From NCBI GenBank assembly GCA_012959665.1, contig DUCT01000187.1, forward strand, positions 27,598 to 76,448: a DNA stretch of 48,851 nucleotides, written 5' to 3'. Below, in pieces: positions 1-33,955 of the stretch; position 1 is the first letter of the stretch, and each line of letters begins with the position of its first letter. Below the pieces are notes generated by a model, which saw only the letters and a program-made list of their open reading frames with translations, had not been told where the DNA came from and searched no databases. The DNA is from Myxococcales bacterium (GTDB taxonomy: Bacteria; Myxococcota_A; UBA9160; UBA4427). The position numbers and the translations under genes were made by a program.

Positions 1-89
1 GTAGAAGAGCGCTTGTAGAAGAGCACTTGTAGAAGAGCGCTTGTAAGAAGAGCACTTGTAAAAAGAGCACTTGTAAAGAGAATGAGCGC
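1..89. repeat. Tandem array of 14-15-nt units (gtagaagagcgctt / gtagaagagcactt / gtaagaagagcactt), truncated by the window edge, next to the rsfS stop codon
   Basis: Units at 1-14, 15-28, 29-42, 43-57, 58-72 and a degenerate unit at 73-89. Confidence 0.9.
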
Positions 90-95
90 GGACCC

Positions 96-485
96 TCAGC
101 CGGCCGATGCTTCCGCTGGATCGTTGAGATTGATCAGGGGCGCGTCGCTCCAGAGCCGCTCAAGGGCAAACTCTTTACGGGTCTCGGGCTCAAAGATATG
201 AACCACGGCTTCGTTGGCATCGATGAGCACCCAGCGTCCCTCGCCTAGTCCCTCGACCCCCAGTGGTTCCTGGCCGGCGCGGCGAAGGGACTGGATGATC
301 GATTCGGCGATGGATCGGACGTGTCTGCTGGAGCGTCCCGAGGTGATCAAGAAGGTATCCGCGAAGGCACTGACCCCACGCATATCCAGGGCCACCAGGG
401 CTTCGGCCTTCAAGTCCAGCGCCGCTTCGACGATGAGGCCGGTCTTGGCACTCTCGGCGGGGTTGGGGGGTTGCAGCTCACTCAA
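96..485 (-). CDS. rsfS: Ribosomal silencing factor RsfS
   Basis: 129 aa; ALDMRGVSAFADTFLITSGRSSRHVRSIAESI and GRWVLIDANEAVVHIFEPETRKEFALERLW are RsfS-like; next to nadD. Confidence 0.93.
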   Translation of the reverse strand: MSELQPPNPAESAKTGLIVEAALDLKAEALVALDMRGVSAFADTFLITSGRSSRHVRSIAESIIQSLRRAGQEPLGVEGLGEGRWVLIDANEAVVHIFEPETRKEFALERLWSDAPLINLNDPAEASAG

Positions 486-1239: not shown

Positions 1240-2376
1240 TCAGTCGTCGAGGACCACGAGGTCGTCGCGATGGATGACCTCGGAACCGTTGGAGTACCCT
1301 AGCACTCGAAAAATTTCCTTTGCTGCGATGCCTTTGATTCGCTGGATATCTCCCGACGTGTAGGCGGAAAGTCCCCGGGCCAGGGGGCGAGCCTGGGCGT
1401 CAACACAGACCACGGCGTCACCGACTCCGAAATCGCCCTCCACGGCCAGGATGCCGACGGGAAGGAGGCTGCGACCGTCGCTGAGCAGCGCGTTGGCGGC
1501 ACCGGGATCCAGGGTGAGGGTGCCTCGGGTTTGGGCCGTGAAGGCGAGCCAGTGTTTGCGGCTGGCCATTCGTTCCCCGGCCAGGAAGAGCGTGCCCACG
1601 GACTCGCCGGCCGCGATGCGGCCAATGGCGTCGGACTGGCGGCCATTGCAGACCACCGTGGCGGCCCCGGAGAGCGCGGCCATGCGCGCCGCCTCGAGCT
1701 TGGTCGTCATGCCGCCGCGTCCGAAGCGGCTGCCGGGCCCTTTTGCGGCGGCCTCGATCTCGGGTGTGATCTGTTCGACTACGTCGAGCAGATCGGGTCG
1801 AGGCCCAGAGGCCGCGGGGGGTTCGGCGTAGAGGCCGTCGACATCGGTCACGATGATGAGCAGATCGGCACTGATTAGGTTGACGATGGTGGCGGAGAGG
1901 CTGTCGTTGTCCCCGAAGCGGATTTCGTCGGTGGACACAGTATCGTTCTCGTTCACGATGGGAACCGTGCCCATCTGAAGCAAGGCCAATAGAGTGTGGC
2001 GTGCATTGAGAAAGCGCTCTCGATCTTGAAGCCCGCCCCGAGTCAGCAGAATCTGGCCGATTTGTCTCCCGTGCCGTGCGAAACGCCGTTGATACATATC
2101 CACTAGCCCGATCTGGCCCACCGCCGCCGCCGCTTGTTTTTCGGGAATCGAGTGGTCGCGATGGGTCCAACCCAGGCGATGACTGCCCGCCGCGATGGCC
2201 CCAGACGAAACGAGAACGACTTCCCGGCCCTGATCCACGAGTTCACTGATCGAGCGGGACAGTTCGCTGAATTTTCGAGGGCGAAGCTTGCCCTCTCGAG
2301 TGAGGGTGCTGCTGCCGACCTTGATGACGATCCGCCGCGCTTGGAGCTGGCACTCTCGTACGGGGTTTGGCTCCAT
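1240..2376 (-). CDS. proB: Glutamate 5-kinase with C-terminal PUA domain
   Basis: [53 protein letters not shown]-like C-terminus. Confidence 0.95.
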
Positions 2377-3476
2377 CAGTCCAGTCTTTCCGATTCATCC
2401 AGGACACGGGTTTCGGCGAGCTTTTCCAATTCGACGGCTTCTTCCACGGACTGGAGCATAGTGCGGAGTAGGGTCTCGGTGCCCTCGCCGGTGGCGCCCG
2501 AGAGCAGAGCGGGGTGGAGTCCGTTCTCGCCAAGCACGTTCTCCAATTCTGCCCGGGTCGAAGCGTCGTGGATCAAATCGACCTTGTTGAGGATCAGAAT
2601 CTCCCGGCGTTCGCTCAATTCGGGCCGATAGCGATGGAGTTCCCGGCGGATGGACCGGTAGTCCTCGACCAGGTTCCGGCCCTCGGTGAGCCACGCACCG
2701 GCGTCGAGGAGGTGGACGAGCACCCGGGTGCGCTCGACGTGGCGGAGAAATTGATGCCCCAGCCCGGCGCCCTCGCTTGCCCCTTCGATCAACCCTGGGA
2801 TATCGGCGACGACAATTCGGGCATCCCCGACCTCGACGACGCCCAAGGAGGGGCTCAGCGTTGTAAAGGGGTAGGAGGCGACTTTGGGTCGGGCCTCGGA
2901 GATGCGACGGAGCAGGGTGGATTTGCCGGCATTCGGAAAACCCACCAGGCCCACGTCGGCGAGCAACTTGAGCGACAGCCGGAGCTGGCGAATTTCGCCG
3001 GGCTTTCCGCTGAGGGCGAAGTCCGGGGTCTGACGGGTGGCATTCCGGAAACGCGCGTTGCCGAAGCCGCCGTTGCCTCCGCGGGCCACCACGAAGCGCT
3101 GGCCATCCTGGGTGAGGTCGACGACCGGCCCGTCCTCTTCGTCGGCAATCGATTCGTTACTGGGATCGCTGGCATAGACCAGAGTTCCCACGGGCAGGCG
3201 AATCTCCGTGTGCGCCCCGCTGGCACCGGTTTTGCGCGAGGTTCCACCATTGGCACCATTCTGGGCGCGGACCTCCGAACGGCGTTGAAGGTCGGTCAGG
3301 GTGTTGAGGTTGCGGTCGGCGACAAGCACCACGTTGCCCCCTCGGCCGCCGTCGCCCCCATTGGGGCCCCCCATGCTGACAAATTTCTCTCGCCGATAAC
3401 CCACGGTCCCGTTGCCTCCCGCCCCGGAAGTGACGGTAATGGCGGCCTCGTCGACGAAGGGCTGGGGGTTCTTCAC
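2376..3476 (-). CDS. obgE: GTPase ObgE/CgtA
   Basis: FVDEAAITVTSGAGGNG, GFPNAGKSTLLRRIS, ADIPGLIEGASEGAGLGHQFLRH, NKVDL. Confidence 0.96.
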   Translation of the reverse strand: MKNPQPFVDEAAITVTSGAGGNGTVGYRREKFVSMGGPNGGDGGRGGNVVLVADRNLNTLTDLQRRSEVRAQNGANGGTSRKTGASGAHTEIRLPVGTLVYASDPSNESIADEEDGPVVDLTQDGQRFVVARGGNGGFGNARFRNATRQTPDFALSGKPGEIRQLRLSLKLLADVGLVGFPNAGKSTLLRRISEARPKVASYPFTTLSPSLGVVEVGDARIVVADIPGLIEGASEGAGLGHQFLRHVERTRVLVHLLDAGAWLTEGRNLVEDYRSIRRELHRYRPELSERREILILNKVDLIHDASTRAELENVLGENGLHPALLSGATGEGTETLLRTMLQSVEEAVELEKLAETRVLDESERLD

Positions 3477-3666: not shown

Positions 3667-3712
3667 TGATAGAGCGCTGATAATAGAGCGCTGATAAAGG
3701 GCGGCTGGCTGA
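3667..3712. repeat. Short degenerate repeats (tgatagagcgctgataatagagcgctgataaag...) beside the main array
   Basis: Two copies of gata(at)agagcgct in the rpmA-obgE gap. Confidence 0.6.
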
Positions 3713-3724
3713 TAGGGTCCGGCC

Positions 3725-3880
3725 GACAGAGTACTTATCGACAGAGTACTTATCGACAAAGCGCTTATCGACAAAGCGCTTATCGACAAAGCGCTTATGG
3801 ACAAAGCGCTTATGGACAAAGCGCTTGTGAACAAAGCGCTTGTGGACAAAGCGCTTGTGAACAAAGCGCTTGTCGACAGA
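3725..3880. repeat. Tandem array of ten exact-length 15-nt units (gacaaagcgcttatc and variants) in the rpmA-obgE gap
   Basis: Units start at 3725, 3740, 3755, 3770, 3785, 3800, 3815, 3830, 3845 and 3860, plus a partial gacaga. Confidence 0.95.
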
Positions 3881-3890
3881 AGGAACGGGT

Positions 3891-4145
3891 TTACTCCGCC
3901 GCGTCGATATGCGCCAGCCTGCGACCCCGGGACCTGCCATAGCGCACCACGCCGTGGGCCAGTGCAAAGAGGGTGTAGTCGCGCCCACAGCCCACGTTTT
4001 CGCCCGGGTGGATCTGGGTCCCTACTTGCCGCACGAGAATCGAGCCCGCGGTGACCTTCTGGCCGCCGAAAACCTTGACCCCTCGCCGCTGGCCGTTGCT
4101 GTCGCGCCCATTACGCGAACTGCCCTGTCCTTTTTTATGCGCCAT
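3891..4145 (-). CDS. rpmA: 50S ribosomal protein L27
   Basis: [43 protein letters not shown]; start at MAHKK rather than the longer listed ORF. Confidence 0.97.
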
Positions 4146-4195
4146 CTCAAATTCCCTATTACATGCGGAGTGGCGCAAGCGCCAGCGGGCCGCGG

Positions 4196-4532: not shown

Positions 4533-6716
4533 TCAAGAGCGCGGTAGTATCCGCGATTCCGCTTCTTCGTCAAGCGTTTGGCTGTCTTCGTGGGGGTTGG
4601 GGGTCTCATCACCCGCGGGACTCGCTTCGGGTTCACCCGATGCTGGCTCGGCTTCGGCCTCGGAGACACGCGCTTCGGAGCCAGGGGCCTCAGAAACAGG
4701 CACTTCGGAGCCAGGCGCCTCAGAAACAAGGGCCTCAGAAACAGGCACTTCGGAGCCAGGCGCCTCAGAAACAAGGGCCTCAGAAACAAGGGCCTCAGAA
4801 ACAAGCGCCTCAGAAACAGGCACTTCGGAGCCAGGCGCCTCGGCCGGTGACACGGTTGTTGAAGCAGAAGTTGAGGCTGCAGCAATGTTTTCCAAGGCCT
4901 CGGGGCTATCCCCAAGGCTATCCCCTGGAGACTCCTCGCCCGTGATCGGGCTTGGTGGCAATTTCTCCAACGGCGCGGGGGGGGGGTTGGGCCTGAGGTC
5001 CTGGGTTTCCTTTTCCACGGCCTCGGCCGGTTCGGCGTTGCCGGGCGCCCTGGACTCGGATTGGCTTCGCGAGCGTTTATCACCCCGCCGCGATCCGCGG
5101 TCTCTCCGGCGGCCATCGCGCCCGCCTCCGCCCTTCTTGCTCTGGGCCTCTTCATCCGCGGCTATTTCAGCCGGGTCCCGGAGCCAGCGCAGGGGAATCG
5201 AAACCGGAGGGGCTTGATCCAGGGCCTCCACTTCGAACTGCTCCTGGTGGATGCCGGGCCGGGCCCGAATCTCGATCTCTTGTCCAAGCGCATCGGAAAG
5301 CGTGGCCAAAGATTTCGCTTCGTGACCGAGCAACTGCTCGGCCACTCGGGGCGCCACGGTAATCGCAATCCGGCGCCCGTTGAAATGCGTGAGGGAGTTG
5401 CGGAGCTCGCGTAGCAAGTTGTACGTGACGGTTTCGTCCGAGAGCAGATAGCCCCGCCCCTCGCAGTGCACGCAGGGTTCGCAGAGGGTCTGGACGAGAT
5501 TTTCGCGGGTTCGTTTCCGCGTCATCTCCACGAGTCCCAGCTCGGAAATCTTAAGGATATTGGTCCTCGCCTTGTCGTGGCGCAGCGCGTCTCGCAGAGC
5601 CCGGTAGGTCTTCTCGCGGTGATCTGCCGATTCCATGTCGATGAGGTCGATGATGATCAGCCCACCGATATTTCGGAAGCGAAGTTGGTTGACCACTTCC
5701 TTGACGGCTTCGAGGTTGGTTTTGTAGACCGTTTCCTCGAGATCGCGTTTACCCACGAAGCGGCCGGTATTGACGTCAATGGCCGTGAGGGCTTCGCACT
5801 GATCCACGATCAACGAACCCCCGGACTTGAGCCAGACCTTGCGCTCGAGGTTCGCGTGGATCTGGGCCTCCAGCCCCATCCTTTGGAAAAGCGGCTCGAG
5901 CCCTTCGTGGCGATCCACTTGGGGCTTGGGATCCGCGACGAAGTCTTCGATGAATTTTTTCAGGGTTTCAAAGGCTTCGGGCTGATCGACCACGATTCGC
6001 TTGGTCTCAGGACTCGCGGCATCGCGCACGATGCGCAGGGGCAGATCGGGTTCCGCGTGAAGGACGCAGGGCGCGACTTTTTCCGCATGGGCCAGCTGAA
6101 TAGCCTCCCAGACAGTGCTCAGGTAACGGATATCGGCCTCAAGGTCGGCTTCCCGTATCCCGTCCCCGGCGGTGCGAATGATAAAGCCGAGGTTTTTGGG
6201 CCGTATCCGGTCGACGATCTCGCGCAGGCGCTTGCGCTCCTTGTCGGAATCGATCCGGCGTGAAACACCGACCCGGGGTGACCAGGGGGTCAGCACCAGG
6301 TGTCGTCCGGGAATCGAAATGTTCGAAGTGATCCGGGCGCCCTTGGTTCCAATGGGAGCCTTGGCGATCTGAACGACGATCTCCTGGCCTTCGGAAAGCA
6401 CGGTATCGATGCGGGGCGGAGGGCTGCGCCGGCCACCTCGACCCCGGGGCCCGCCTCGCCGTCCTGGGGATTCCTGTTCGCCGCCGGTGTTGTCGAAGTA
6501 GTCGCCGACGTAAAGGAAGGCGGCCTTTTCCAGGCCGATGTCGACGAAGGCGGCTTGCATTCCGGGCAGCACTCGGCTGACCCGTCCCTTGACGACGTTG
6601 CCGACCACGCTTTTGCTGCGTGCTCGCTCGATATGCAGTTCGGTGAACTGGCCTTGTTCCAGCAACGCGACCCGGGTTTCCCCGGAGTCCACGTTGACTA
6701 CGATTTCATTCTCCAT
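4533..6716 (-). CDS. rne: Ribonuclease E/G family protein with S1 domain and repeat-bearing C-terminal extension
   Basis: S1-like N-terminus, GGSLIVDQCEALTAIDVNTGRFVG, NLEAVKEVVNQLRFRNIGGLIIIDLIDM, CEPCVHCEGRGY; acidic pentapeptide-repeat tail. rne versus rng not resolved. Confidence 0.93.
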   Translation of the reverse strand: MENEIVVNVDSGETRVALLEQGQFTELHIERARSKSVVGNVVKGRVSRVLPGMQAAFVDIGLEKAAFLYVGDYFDNTGGEQESPGRRGGPRGRGGRRSPPPRIDTVLSEGQEIVVQIAKAPIGTKGARITSNISIPGRHLVLTPWSPRVGVSRRIDSDKERKRLREIVDRIRPKNLGFIIRTAGDGIREADLEADIRYLSTVWEAIQLAHAEKVAPCVLHAEPDLPLRIVRDAASPETKRIVVDQPEAFETLKKFIEDFVADPKPQVDRHEGLEPLFQRMGLEAQIHANLERKVWLKSGGSLIVDQCEALTAIDVNTGRFVGKRDLEETVYKTNLEAVKEVVNQLRFRNIGGLIIIDLIDMESADHREKTYRALRDALRHDKARTNILKISELGLVEMTRKRTRENLVQTLCEPCVHCEGRGYLLSDETVTYNLLRELRNSLTHFNGRRIAITVAPRVAEQLLGHEAKSLATLSDALGQEIEIRARPGIHQEQFEVEALDQAPPVSIPLRWLRDPAEIAADEEAQSKKGGGGRDGRRRDRGSRRGDKRSRSQSESRAPGNAEPAEAVEKETQDLRPNPPPAPLEKLPPSPITGEESPGDSLGDSPEALENIAAASTSASTTVSPAEAPGSEVPVSEALVSEALVSEALVSEAPGSEVPVSEALVSEAPGSEVPVSEAPGSEARVSEAEAEPASGEPEASPAGDETPNPHEDSQTLDEEAESRILPRS
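4661..4840 (-). repeat. In-frame 15-nt tandem repeat, 12 units, encoding pentapeptides such as EALVS/EAPGS/EVPVS in the RNase E/G C-terminus
   Basis: Twelve consecutive 15-mers (cagaaacaagggcct, cagaaacaggcactt, cggagccaggcgcct types) with no length variation. Confidence 0.95.
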
Positions 6717-18640: not shown

Positions 18641-18688
18641 GACAGCGAGTAGGGACTAACGACGAGCGATTAGCGACGAGCGATTACG
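18641..18688. repeat. 14-nt direct repeats (gacgagcgattagc gacgagcgattacg, plus a degenerate upstream copy)
   Basis: Exact-length units at 18661-18674 and 18675-18688. Confidence 0.65.
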
Positions 18689-25205: not shown

Positions 25206-26288
25206 ATGAAAAATAACAAGGATCGCTACTGGGATTGCCTCGATCAGGCGATGGAAGCCTCCCACGGCGGCCGAATCGAAGAGGCCCTGGCGTGGCTGGA
25301 AGAGGCCCTCAAGGCGAACCCCGGAGGCGCAGAGGCGCACAACGGCCGGGGCGAAATTCTCTGGGATGAGGGACGCGTCGAAGAATCGCTCTACGAGTTT
25401 GAGCGCGCGATTGCCACCGATCCAAAGTTCGGGACCGCGCATCTCAATCGCATCGAACTTCTAGTCGAAGAGGTCGGTGAATTCGAAACCGCCCTAGAGG
25501 CCTGTGACGATCTGCTGGCCGGTCTGCCTTCCCGCCCACGCCTGGACCGGCCCTTCCAAGCGGAGCTCTGTTACCTGAAGGCCAAGTCTCTTTTCTATCG
25601 CGACGATCTTGAGGGCGCGGTTTTCTTGATTCGGCGAGCGACGAAATCGGGAGGCGAGCAGCCCACCTACAGCGCATTCGAGGGTCATGTGCTCTTCGAG
25701 ATGGGTGCCTATGCCGAGGCCCGGCGTGTGCTCGAACGGGCCCTTGCCTGTGAGCCCGATTCCCCCCATATCGTTTACAGTCTGGGTCTCGTGCTGGAGC
25801 GCATCGTCGCGTCGGGGAGTGAGGAGTTTTCGACGGGAGCCGTCGCCGCCGCTCGAACGGGTGCAGAAGCCGCTTTTGAACGCGCCCATGCCCTGGACCC
25901 GCTGCAGTTTCCGATCCCGGTTTCTGTGAGTACGAAATTTTTTGAAGAGGCCATCGCCGAGGCCTTGGATAATCTACCGCGCTCGATTCGGGAATATGTC
26001 GCAAACGTGCCGATTCTCATCGAGGATTTCCCGACTCTGGACCGGGTGGTGGGGGAACGTCTTTCGCCCCAACTACTGGGTCTCTTTGTCGGGATTCCGC
26101 GCACCCAGGCGGCCGCGACGGAGCAGGTGCCCGATCTCGATCAGATCCTGCTCTTCAAGGGCAATCTCGAAAAGATCTGCCGAGACCGCGAGGAGTTGAT
26201 CGAACAGATCCAGATAACGGTTCGGCACGAGATAGGCCACTACCTGGGCCTTGACGAAAACGATCTCGAGCGGCTGGGCCTGGCCTGA
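25206..26288 (+). CDS. TPR-domain protein with C-terminal zincin-like metallopeptidase domain (TTHA0227/PF06262-like)
   Basis: TPR-like repeats; C-term DNLPRSIREYVANVPILIEDFP...LLGLFVGIP...ILLFKGNLEKICRDREELIEQIQITVRHEIGHYLGLDENDLERLG with HExxH. Confidence 0.82.
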   Translation: MKNNKDRYWDCLDQAMEASHGGRIEEALAWLEEALKANPGGAEAHNGRGEILWDEGRVEESLYEFERAIATDPKFGTAHLNRIELLVEEVGEFETALEACDDLLAGLPSRPRLDRPFQAELCYLKAKSLFYRDDLEGAVFLIRRATKSGGEQPTYSAFEGHVLFEMGAYAEARRVLERALACEPDSPHIVYSLGLVLERIVASGSEEFSTGAVAAARTGAEAAFERAHALDPLQFPIPVSVSTKFFEEAIAEALDNLPRSIREYVANVPILIEDFPTLDRVVGERLSPQLLGLFVGIPRTQAAATEQVPDLDQILLFKGNLEKICRDREELIEQIQITVRHEIGHYLGLDENDLERLGLA

Positions 26289-26334
26289 AAGCGCTTGCCA
26301 CGGATGCGCCCGCGCCGAGCGCCCGGCTTCCGTG

Positions 26335-26444
26335 CCTTCGCTCCCATAGCTTCACCGTCGCGCCTATACCTTCGCGCCTATACCGTCGCTCCTATACCTT
26401 CGGTCCTATCCTATACCTTCACCTTCGCTCCTATACCCCCGCTC
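26335..26444. repeat. Degenerate 14-nt tandem repeats (cc[gt]tcg[cg][gt]cctata)
   Basis: Units at 26355-26368, 26369-26382, 26383-26396; expanded or degenerate copies to about 26444; flanking copy at 26335-26348. Confidence 0.85.
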
Positions 26445-26512
26445 CGGCGGGTCTCCGGCGGTGCCGGTTCGGTGAAAGTCCGGTTCCCGCGTATTGGGGC
26501 TAGGCTGTCGGG

Positions 26513-30553: not shown

Positions 30554-30651
30554 ACGGGCTCATCGATACGGGCTCATCAATACGGGCTCATCGATATGAG
30601 CGCATTGATACGAGCTCATCGACACGAGCTCATCGACACGAGCTCACTGCA
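30554..30651. repeat. Tandem array of seven 14-nt units (acgggctcatcgat / atgagcgcattgat / acgagctcatcgac) between convergent genes
   Basis: Units start at 30554, 30568, 30582, 30596, 30610, 30624 and 30638. Confidence 0.92.
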
Positions 30652-30675: not shown

Positions 30676-32958
30676 TCAGCGATAGAGAAAGATATCCGGG
30701 GTTTCCTTGGGTGGGCGCCAGCGCGGGAAGGCGCCAAGATTGAAATCGTTAAAACTGCCCTGGAAGACCAAGTCGAAGGGGAGAATCGACTCGCGTCCGC
30801 GCACCAGTCCGTAGCGCTCGCGCATGCTTTGATAGACATATGTGCTCTGGGCCGTGGGGCGCTTGTCCGGGCGACCCACCAGCCCGAGCAACGCGCGCTC
30901 GAGGAACTGATCGCGATCGGCATCGGCGGCCAGGGTGTCGTCGGGATCGATGAGCTGATTGCGACGGGTGGTCTCGTCGAGCATCGCCGCGAGCTGTGCC
31001 ATCCGCTGGGAAGAGATTTTTTTGTAGAGCGCGAGGGGCGGGGCCTTTTCGTCGCCCTCTTTGTCCACCATGTCGAAGCGCAGGCTTAGGCCGCCCAGCA
31101 AGGTCACACCGGCTGGATGAAGTTCGCCATCGACGATCTCTCCATTGATGAGAATGGGATTGATCCCGAGCCCTCCGGTTCCGGCGACACGCGGATTTTC
31201 CACCAGGAAATCCCGGGTGACGGTGATCTTCTGGGGAGAGGCGGTTTCGAGTTCGCTTCGTACCCGGTAGCCGGCGAGCTTGCCCCCGTCGTTGTCCGGA
31301 TATTCGATGGAGGTGTAGCGGAGGGCCTGGATTCGCCGGTCAGGGCGCCGAATTCCCTCGGCACTTCCGAGTTGTTGGGCTGCTGCGGCCTCGGCGAGAT
31401 CCGCGCGTTTTGCGTTTTCCATGGGGGGGAGAAAGTCGGCGATTCGTAACGCGCCCACGAAGTTGCCCCTGCCCTCCTCGTAAGTCAAAAGCCATGTCAT
31501 GAGTTCCTCGGCATGCTGACCATCGGGTTGAAGACCGAGGTAGCGGTAAGCGAGAATCGCGCTGGGCTGCTGGAAGTCAGGGGATTTCTGCCAGCGCCCG
31601 AAAATCATTCGTAGGGGAGAAGTCGCCAGGGCAGCGGCGATTCCCGGCGACTCCAAGACGACGGCCAGCGGTCGGGGAAGGTTCGGATAGCGAGTTTTCG
31701 TCGCGTAGTTGCCCAGCAGTCGCCAGCGAATTTCTTCGTTGCGTTTGCGTGTCCGCATCTCCCGGTAGGCGCGATATGGGTTTTGCCAGGGGTCTTGAAG
31801 CAAGTGGATGGCGTGTCGCACCATGAAGTTTTTCGCCGGGTCTTGCCGAGCGAGGGCGGCCAGGGTCTTCCAACTGGCCTCTGCCTCGCCGCCTTCGTAC
31901 TGGGCCAGGGCAAAGATGTAGGCCGCCTCTCCGCCCACACCTCCGCTGTCACGCGACTGCAATTCCAGGGTGTCGATGAGATCGGGTGCCAGGGGCTTGG
32001 CGCCCGGCGACGTGGTCAGCAGGGCGCTGGCGAGGGTGCGGCTTTCCGGGCCGTATTGGCGCCCCGGTGCCAGGGGGGCAGCCTCCAGTGATTGTTGGAA
32101 GAGCCGCCAATGCTCCGCGATGATCGCCTTGGAGCGCGCGAGGATCTTGTCGGCCTCGGGGCTGGGCCCCCAAAAGAGCGCACGCCGGGCCTCGAGCCCG
32201 GCCGCGCGGTATCGCCCGGCCTCTGCGGCCTGCCGGGCAGCGCGGAGCCGACGGGCGCGCATGGTTTCGGCCAGCTTCTTGTCCCCACCGGCGACCTGGC
32301 CGCGGACATACTCGGAATCGGCTGCGGCGGGATTGCGGGCCAGGTATTCCTTGCGCAGGGCGAGGGCCTGGCGATCGGTGGCCGGCAGCGCTTCGTCGTT
32401 GGAAAAACTGGCAAGGTAGTGGGCGACGCTTGTGGAGATTTGAAGGGGTGCGAGTATGAAGCCGTTGAAAACCGCTTGGCCCAGAGGCTGGGAAACGGCA
32501 TTGAAGGTGCGGGCCCAATAGCGTTCCCATGTGTCGCGCCTTCGGCGCCAGGCCAGGGCGAGCAGGTCGTCGTTGACCGATTGGGTGAGGCGAGCATCCA
32601 GGGCTGGGTCGGTTCCCCAGCCCCGGGTCAGTTCCCGGCTGGCGTCGCGGTAGGCCTCGGGGTTTTCCAGGGTGGAGTGGACCAGATTGGCGGCCAAGGG
32701 GTCGAGGTCCTCGCCCTTGTGCGCATCGGAAATTGTGCCCAACTTGGCCACGGCTTCCTTCAGGGCGGGCCGGTCATCGGCCAGGGCTGCCGCGGCGGCG
32801 CGGGCGGCCACCCGGTCCGAGGGCTCGGGAAGCCAGGGAGCCGGTGCGCTGAGAGGAATCAGGAGTGCACCGCCCGGCGGCGGCGGCCGACTGGCGCAGG
32901 CTCCCCCAGTCAAGGCCAAGGCCAGGGCCAATGGAAGGGCAACGGCCGGGCCGACCAT
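30676..32958 (-). CDS. Large putative lipoprotein, helical-repeat rich, no recognised domain
   Basis: Signal/lipobox-like MVGPAVALPLALALALTGGACAS; long continuous ORF; start may lie upstream (ORF open to 33060). Confidence 0.75.
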   Translation of the reverse strand: MVGPAVALPLALALALTGGACASRPPPPGGALLIPLSAPAPWLPEPSDRVAARAAAAALADDRPALKEAVAKLGTISDAHKGEDLDPLAANLVHSTLENPEAYRDASRELTRGWGTDPALDARLTQSVNDDLLALAWRRRRDTWERYWARTFNAVSQPLGQAVFNGFILAPLQISTSVAHYLASFSNDEALPATDRQALALRKEYLARNPAAADSEYVRGQVAGGDKKLAETMRARRLRAARQAAEAGRYRAAGLEARRALFWGPSPEADKILARSKAIIAEHWRLFQQSLEAAPLAPGRQYGPESRTLASALLTTSPGAKPLAPDLIDTLELQSRDSGGVGGEAAYIFALAQYEGGEAEASWKTLAALARQDPAKNFMVRHAIHLLQDPWQNPYRAYREMRTRKRNEEIRWRLLGNYATKTRYPNLPRPLAVVLESPGIAAALATSPLRMIFGRWQKSPDFQQPSAILAYRYLGLQPDGQHAEELMTWLLTYEEGRGNFVGALRIADFLPPMENAKRADLAEAAAAQQLGSAEGIRRPDRRIQALRYTSIEYPDNDGGKLAGYRVRSELETASPQKITVTRDFLVENPRVAGTGGLGINPILINGEIVDGELHPAGVTLLGGLSLRFDMVDKEGDEKAPPLALYKKISSQRMAQLAAMLDETTRRNQLIDPDDTLAADADRDQFLERALLGLVGRPDKRPTAQSTYVYQSMRERYGLVRGRESILPFDLVFQGSFNDFNLGAFPRWRPPKETPDIFLYR

Positions 32959-32989
32959 CCTCGGCGAGGCTCGGGGCCCCTGACGCTTT

Positions 32990-33955
32990 TTATCGGCTGA
33001 AGCGATCACCATCCACCCGGAGTGTAAAGGCCAAAAGGGCTTCGAGCCGACGGGCGTCATGAGAGGCGACGGATTCGTAGAGTTGCGCGGCGGGGTCGAT
33101 TAGATCCTGGAATTCCGCGGGATCGAATTCGAGGCTTTCGGGCGGGCTCGCGTCGACGTACTCCCGGGCCATTGCGTCGTAGAGGTTCGCCAGGGAGATC
33201 ATGTGGCCCAGGCGGTTTTTGCTGGCCGCGTGACGCGAAACCACCCGTTGAAGCTCGGCGACCGCCATGAGAGCGCCATCGGGGATAATGTGGCGGCGGT
33301 TGACGAAGTAGGCGGCGCGTACTTCATCGGCGCGTTCGATCTCTTCGGCAATGACCGCCTGCATGTAGTTGCCCCCGAGTTCATCGTAGAGGAAAGACAG
33401 CAGCGCCACGCGCTCCGCGAGTTCAGCGACCACCGCCTGGGGGTCTTCGAGCTCCCGGTCCGGGGAGACGGGCGGCGGGTCCAGGGGGTTTTCCAGGTGA
33501 GGACCCACGGTTAGGGCGGCGGTGATCTGCTCGCACACCGAGGCGCTGGCCTCGGCGGGTGCGCGTAATTCACCCTCGGGCCGTGCGGCTCGCAAGTAGT
33601 GGAGGGTGGCCAGGTCGTAGGCCCGCAAGCGCTCAAGGGCGCGGGCCTTGGCAAAATCCATGACCGGATCCATGTAGCCGCTGCGCAGGGGGTCGGCTTG
33701 GATTCGTTCGATGTTTTCCAGTCGGAGCAGGCTTGAGCGGTAGACGTTGCGCCCGGTGAAGTCGGTGGCGGGCGGAAATCGATATGTGTCGTCGGGCACG
33801 TGGCGGCGCAAGACCGCGACGACTTCGATGATGCTCTCGGTAGGCCCGTAAGTGGCTTCGAGCTTCTTGGTCTTGAGACTCGTGCACGAGGTGCTGACCA
33901 TGAGCAGGGCGCAGAGCCCGAGGCGGAGGCCAACCGCGCCTCGGGTCCAAGTCAT
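32990..33955 (-). CDS. Putative lipoprotein, no recognised domain
   Basis: MTWTRGAVGLRLGLCALLMVSTSCTSLKTKK lipobox-like signal; upstream of the larger lipoprotein on the same strand. Confidence 0.75.
   Translation of the reverse strand: MTWTRGAVGLRLGLCALLMVSTSCTSLKTKKLEATYGPTESIIEVVAVLRRHVPDDTYRFPPATDFTGRNVYRSSLLRLENIERIQADPLRSGYMDPVMDFAKARALERLRAYDLATLHYLRAARPEGELRAPAEASASVCEQITAALTVGPHLENPLDPPPVSPDRELEDPQAVVAELAERVALLSFLYDELGGNYMQAVIAEEIERADEVRAAYFVNRRHIIPDGALMAVAELQRVVSRHAASKNRLGHMISLANLYDAMAREYVDASPPESLEFDPAEFQDLIDPAAQLYESVASHDARRLEALLAFTLRVDGDRFSR

Follow-up and report, generated by a model that had tools for sequence, protein, structure and literature searches.

Short tandem arrays, some sharing an AAGCGC core, probably arise in place at gene ends and within genes of a Myxococcota genome

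Tandem arrays of the window and their gene neighbours

The window, a stretch of 48,851 nt, is part of contig C187 of a metagenome-assembled genome (MAG; 3.57 Mb in 268 contigs, 80.5% complete) whose closest named relatives by Obg are Myxococcota MAGs. The genes for the GTPase Obg (obg, 2376..3476) and for ribosomal protein L27 (rpmA, 3891..4178), both identified with Pfam, are co-directional on the minus strand. These two genes usually lie in one operon. Delimiting the tandem arrays of the window with TRF placed two of them, both on the minus strand, in the rpmA-obg spacer. One is short and has an AGCGCT core (3669..3697, 2.1 x 14 bp). The other, the main array, has the core AAGCGCTT and sits immediately beyond the rpmA stop (3725..3880; TRF 3734-3878, 9.7 x 15 bp), with eight exact copies of AAGCGC. 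A preliminary description of this DNA had reported that the core AGCGCT changes to AGTACT within this array. The change is real and affects the first two units, at the obg-proximal end, where it amounts to two transitions at the central CpG.

A 14/15-bp array with AGCGCT/AGCACT cores (1..80, minus strand, 5.6 x 14 bp by TRF) begins 15 nt beyond the stop of rsfS (96-485, minus strand, RsfS by Pfam). Both variants, AGTACT and AGCACT, can be read as CpG transitions. An array missing from the preliminary list, representing the same phenomenon, lies in frame in the C-terminal tail of RNase E/G (4657..4841, minus strand). TRF, the sequence and its translation showed a 15-bp unit with 45-bp higher-order structure there; one unit reads AAGCGCCTCAGAAAC, and the peptide repeats are VSEAL/VSEAP.

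The remaining arrays of the window are without the AAGCGC core. These comprise 6.8 copies of a 14-bp unit at 26354..26445, 6.6 copies of a 14-bp unit with a GAGCTC core between two convergent genes at 30554..30646, and two weak 14-bp units (CGACGAGCGATTAG, 1.9 copies) at 18660..18686, whose likeness to the core was not significant. At its stop codon, the TPR/Zincin gene (Zincin_1 and TPR by Pfam) has one lone AAAGCGCTTG (26288..26297, plus strand), an unamplified seed. The ORF convergent to the glcF-type gene (30676-33060, minus strand, 794 aa) had no Pfam match.

TRF recovered the arrays that had been listed beforehand (1-80, 3669-3697, 3734-3878, 26354-26445 and 30554-30646), that at 18660-18686 only weakly, and Pfam bore out the reported gene contexts of the rsfS, rpmA, Zincin and glcF-type genes. 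The units had also been called related by eye. Among the six window units alone, this likeness was not significant in best-window matches against shuffles (P 0.06-0.9); it became significant only genome-wide, for the AAGCGC core.

An AAGCGC core across the genome

We scanned about 0.89 Mb of the genome, with genes called using a hexamer model. The periods of tandem arrays peaked at 13-15 bp between genes and were mostly multiples of 3 within coding sequence. Arrays with a period of 10-17 bp numbered 70 in 894 kb, compared with 3 in 706 kb of mixed other taxa, the latter drawn from regions around obg that are possibly repeat-poor. The arrays ran head to tail, and their units were homogeneous within a locus and different between loci. 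We collected 32 distinct intergenic core arrays in 1.05 Mb sampled, from contigs that were partly hit-chosen. A genome-wide set of related-looking 13-15-bp arrays that prefers gene 3' ends, as had been supposed from the window, does exist.

On contigs that were not hit-chosen, AAGCGC was repeated at 13-16 bp at 6 intergenic loci, compared with 0.24 expected, and ranked first of 605 hexamers; the words next in rank included its relatives AAGAGC and AGCGCC. Among 46 TRF arrays, again without hit-chosen contigs, AAGCGC was present in 5 (0.82 expected; P 0.001 for a pre-named word, but with all words allowed a top count of 5 is not unusual, P 0.24). The excess came out stronger when the hit-chosen contigs were included. 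Whole-genome counts are free of this bias, and here the strict pair AAGCGCTT-N4..9-AAGCGCTT occurred 27 times in this MAG, 5 times in the sister species, twice in another congener and 0-2 times per genome elsewhere in the phylum (about 280 genomes). A reversed version of the strict pair, used as a control, did not occur in this genome (0 occurrences), and a relaxed form of the pair gave 61+64 occurrences against 9+5 for its control.

The preference for the core is moderate, with the exact core absent from most arrays, and within coding sequence of the unselected sample AAGCGC pairs showed no enrichment (1 vs 1.2 expected). Near stops without an array, AAGCGC seeds showed only a mild enrichment (71, with 45 expected; rank 103 of 1768). 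The seed pool therefore does not explain the AAGCGC arrays, and seed abundance at stops was rejected as an explanation. Genome-wide, a subset of the arrays shares the core. A search of the literature on AAGCGCTT arrays or on intergenic repeats of Myxococcota found nothing relevant.

Local origin of units at gene ends and within coding sequences

At several sites the unit came from the end of the adjoining gene. Read in gene sense, these ends were ...AAGGGGCGCTGA/TCGAGGGGCGCTGA-TCAAGGAGCGCTTA... (also written TTCAAGGGGCGCTGA/TCGAGGGGCGCTGA...), ...ATGGGCGCTTAG/TGATGGGCGCTTAG... (also written TTCATGGGCGCTTAG/TGATGGGCGCTTAG...) and ...GGTAG/AAGCGCTTGTTTAG..., i.e. CGGTAG/AAGCGCTTGTTTAG... In the sister species G004, at 79-86% nucleotide identity, the array was absent at 6 of 6 orthologous ends, and a precursor was visible at two of the six (AAATTTAAGGGGCGCTAG and TAGAAGCAGTGG). 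No array was present in the rpmA-obg spacer of any of the four congeners G001-G004. Local derivation and orthologous absence hold for a subset of loci. The flanks of different arrays shared no sequence between loci, and what the core arrays have in common spans 6-8 bp only. In G002 (record L041, 4491-4574) we observed a 13-bp array formed from the last rplU codons and the stop, with an unrelated word.

One site was found in two versions. On contig C80 (L134 13223-13584, G000), between two convergent genes, the same sequence stands on either side of a 10-N scaffold gap, in two versions that match over about 160 bp except for a small number of substitutions and 17 bp of AAGCGC array. These are probably two strain haplotypes of the population, carrying a short and a long allele; an assembly artefact is a possible source of the double version.

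A whole-genome pattern search also found 15-bp AAGCGC units within coding sequences, in proteins that we take, by sequence recognition and not by family search, to be LarE, a TrmH-like methylase, an acyl-CoA-dehydrogenase-like protein and PBP1A. In frame, such units encode the C-terminal ends GSLNEALSNEALSNEALS... of LarE (a NEALS repeat) and HHFREALVDEALVDEALV... of the TrmH-like methylase; the acyl-CoA-dehydrogenase-like protein ends in GEALEGEARGGEALE (a GEALE repeat), and PBP1A has the linker DEALGNEALLD, both from 15-bp AAGCGC units. In the TrmH-like methylase all four congeners have FREAL without repeats, written in synonymous codons (gaggccctt/gaggctctc/gaggccttg), while G000 alone spells gaagcgctt and alone has the array. 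For the RNase E/G tail, G003 has just a single seed, SEAPG, at the counterpart of 4657-4841. The C-terminal array of LarE is partly shared between G000 and G004, and the 15-bp array of G004 is spelled GAAGCCCTGAGCAAT where G000 has GAAGCGCTTAGCAAT, which suggests either one common birth, with the word altered later in G000, or two separate births. The G004 LarE array (L303, 15-bp, C-terminal) is without the exact AAGCGC word.

An earlier view took the arrays for copies of a single repeat family and not for the outcome of independent slippage. This view is not supported, given units taken from local gene ends, array-free sites in the sister species, unlike flanks and coding arrays grown from native codons. 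The likeness of the units reflects a shared seed word and thus points to convergent local births, not to one travelling element. The arrays are real and have a sequence preference, and they are not a dispersed family.

Explanations for the arrays and comparison with known systems

We propose, with a probability of roughly two in three, that the arrays are bacterial minisatellites born in place, with birth or growth biased to AAGCGC-type seeds. A site's own sequence, often the last codons, the stop and the next bases, would undergo tandem duplication, 12-16 bp at a time, after which the array would grow and homogenise locally. The order of the units and their local origin suggest slippage or unequal exchange as the process of growth. 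Birth or growth would favour seeds with AAGCGC, in most cases with a pyrimidine as the next base and often extended to the full dyad AAGCGCTT, and through this bias unrelated loci would come to resemble one family. Arrays would persist at places where they do no harm: beyond stops, in the spacers of convergent gene pairs and, where they come in multiples of 3 bp, in the disordered tails of proteins. They are presumably neutral.

The placement of the core arrays bears on a different reading, in which tandem AAGCGC dyads form a selected 3'-end element, serving as binding sites or as hairpins that end or insulate transcription. Such an element would be most useful between convergent genes, and selection, not mutation bias, would make the cores alike. 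Among the core arrays for which both neighbours are known, 11 of 27 are flanked by convergent gene pairs, compared with 11% of intergenic bases (P 7e-5 by bases; P 0.002 counting intergenic regions), and only 2 of 27 by divergent pairs; promoters alone, however, may exclude arrays from divergent regions. With 20 of the 27 nearer to a 3' than to a 5' gene end, the placement first noticed in the window extends genome-wide for core arrays. Non-core arrays showed the same trend more weakly (7 of 39 between convergent genes, P 0.05 for the difference), and the stronger convergent placement of the core arrays could mean function. Against versions with permuted columns, core arrays fold better on average (mean z about -1.1, with +0.1 for non-core arrays), but several of them fold no better than chance. 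Dyad-keeping variants also occur: AGTACT and, through a paired change in one array, GGCGCC. Against selection, the main array interrupts the rpmA-obg spacer, the sites are not conserved in the sister species, the core is amplified within enzymes as well, and its orientation relative to the upstream gene is mixed. These last two observations also mean that a 3'-UTR function, which had been raised earlier, is not required. Taken as a whole, a selected element appears unlikely to us.

Two narrower forms of function were rejected. Core arrays fold similarly on both strands, with no strand-specific RNA structure relative to the gene, and RNA-strand-specific hairpins (G-U tolerance) were rejected on the mixed orientation. 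Titration of DnaA was considered since some units contain TTGTCCACA, a putative DnaA box, but this box is not conserved from array to array.

Hairpin-stabilised slippage on its own would expand any palindromic unit, AAGCGCTT being just one such palindrome. Neighbouring AAGCGCTT cores can indeed form 8-bp stems with 6-7-nt loops, and a dyad of at least 6 bp was present in 5 of 21 long arrays. However, dyads were not enriched over shuffles (5 vs 3.4, P 0.24), other palindromes were not favoured, and the dyad is imperfect in about half of the core units, which have AGCGCC. We consider this explanation improbable, and palindrome-driven slippage as a general process was rejected for lack of a dyad excess. 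A REP/REPIN-like mobile repeat, in which a single ancestral element with AAGCGC had reached many intergenic sites and grown into an array at each, would account for the restriction to one lineage and for the core and the similar period that about 32 intergenic loci (in 1.05 Mb sampled) have in common. It is disfavoured and highly improbable: the spacers vary from locus to locus and correspond to the ends of the local genes, flanks share nothing, coding arrays derive from native codons, and the Y1/RAYT transposase (PF01797), the lack of which speaks against REP/RAYT mobility, was absent in five genomes of the genus (this one being 80.5% complete) with control genomes positive.

If minisatellites are born in place, their seed bias may come from a nick or break at a specific sequence, from pausing of the polymerase or from slippage that is stabilised. 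Since dyads are not favoured, AGCGCC makes up about half of the units and seeds are only mildly enriched, neither palindrome slippage alone nor seed supply is sufficient; the cause may be a break or pause at a specific sequence, or selection for a site that is bound. We tentatively suggest that a factor acting at AAGCGC(Y), such as a nickase, a recombinase, a polymerase pause or a DNA-binding protein, might drive the stepwise 13-15-bp duplication of its surroundings, whether in noncoding sequence or, with the reading frame kept, in the tails of proteins. A search for a HaeII-type (RGCGCY) enzyme with PF09554 gave no match in the genome, and control genomes gave no match either.

Loss of the ancestral site generally hides how minisatellites are born and why some of them have a core in common. 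The five related genomes compared here retain both stages, sites still without an array and sites where one has been born, in coding as well as noncoding sequence. A specific word is linked to the birth or growth of the arrays, and the coding cases show how conserved enzymes can acquire peptide repeats at their C-termini. Human minisatellites likewise consist of different units with a short common core, which has been proposed to promote its own instability, but they belong to a eukaryotic, meiotic setting and are of other sequence. This old idea of a core promoting its own amplification becomes testable in bacteria.

In behaviour, the closest analogue is the tandem repeats of Borg elements, which are independent and recent births with units unique to each locus and suspected seed sequences, and which are found both between genes and in ORFs, where they are in frame with unit lengths divisible by 3 (PMC9879509). 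The present arrays differ in lying on a bacterial chromosome, in their period of 12-16 bp with imperfect units, in a seed bias for the hexamer AAGCGC and not for A-richness, and in their bias to gene 3' ends and convergent pairs (PMC9879509). REP/REPIN sequences, which are moved by RAYTs, are similarly mostly extragenic and lineage-specific and have a palindromic core, whereas here no RAYT/Y1 was detected, the units are locally derived and the arrays run head to tail (PMC3116915). In place of a conserved 20-60-bp element at hundreds of extragenic sites, we found 6-8 bp at about 32 loci. The TAACTGA direct repeats of Beggiatoaceae are likewise short, numerous intergenic arrays built on a single word, and they occur sporadically among genomes, but they have 7-bp units mostly just upstream of start codons, in contrast to the 13-15 bp, variable spacers and predominance near stop codons seen here (PMC4679880). 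Intergenic repeats in freshwater Planctomycetota MAGs are likewise length-variable and attributed to slippage, and the sections of that report considered here describe no shared core, unlike the present arrays (PMC9426551). What differs from known tandem repeats is the sequence preference for AAGCGC.
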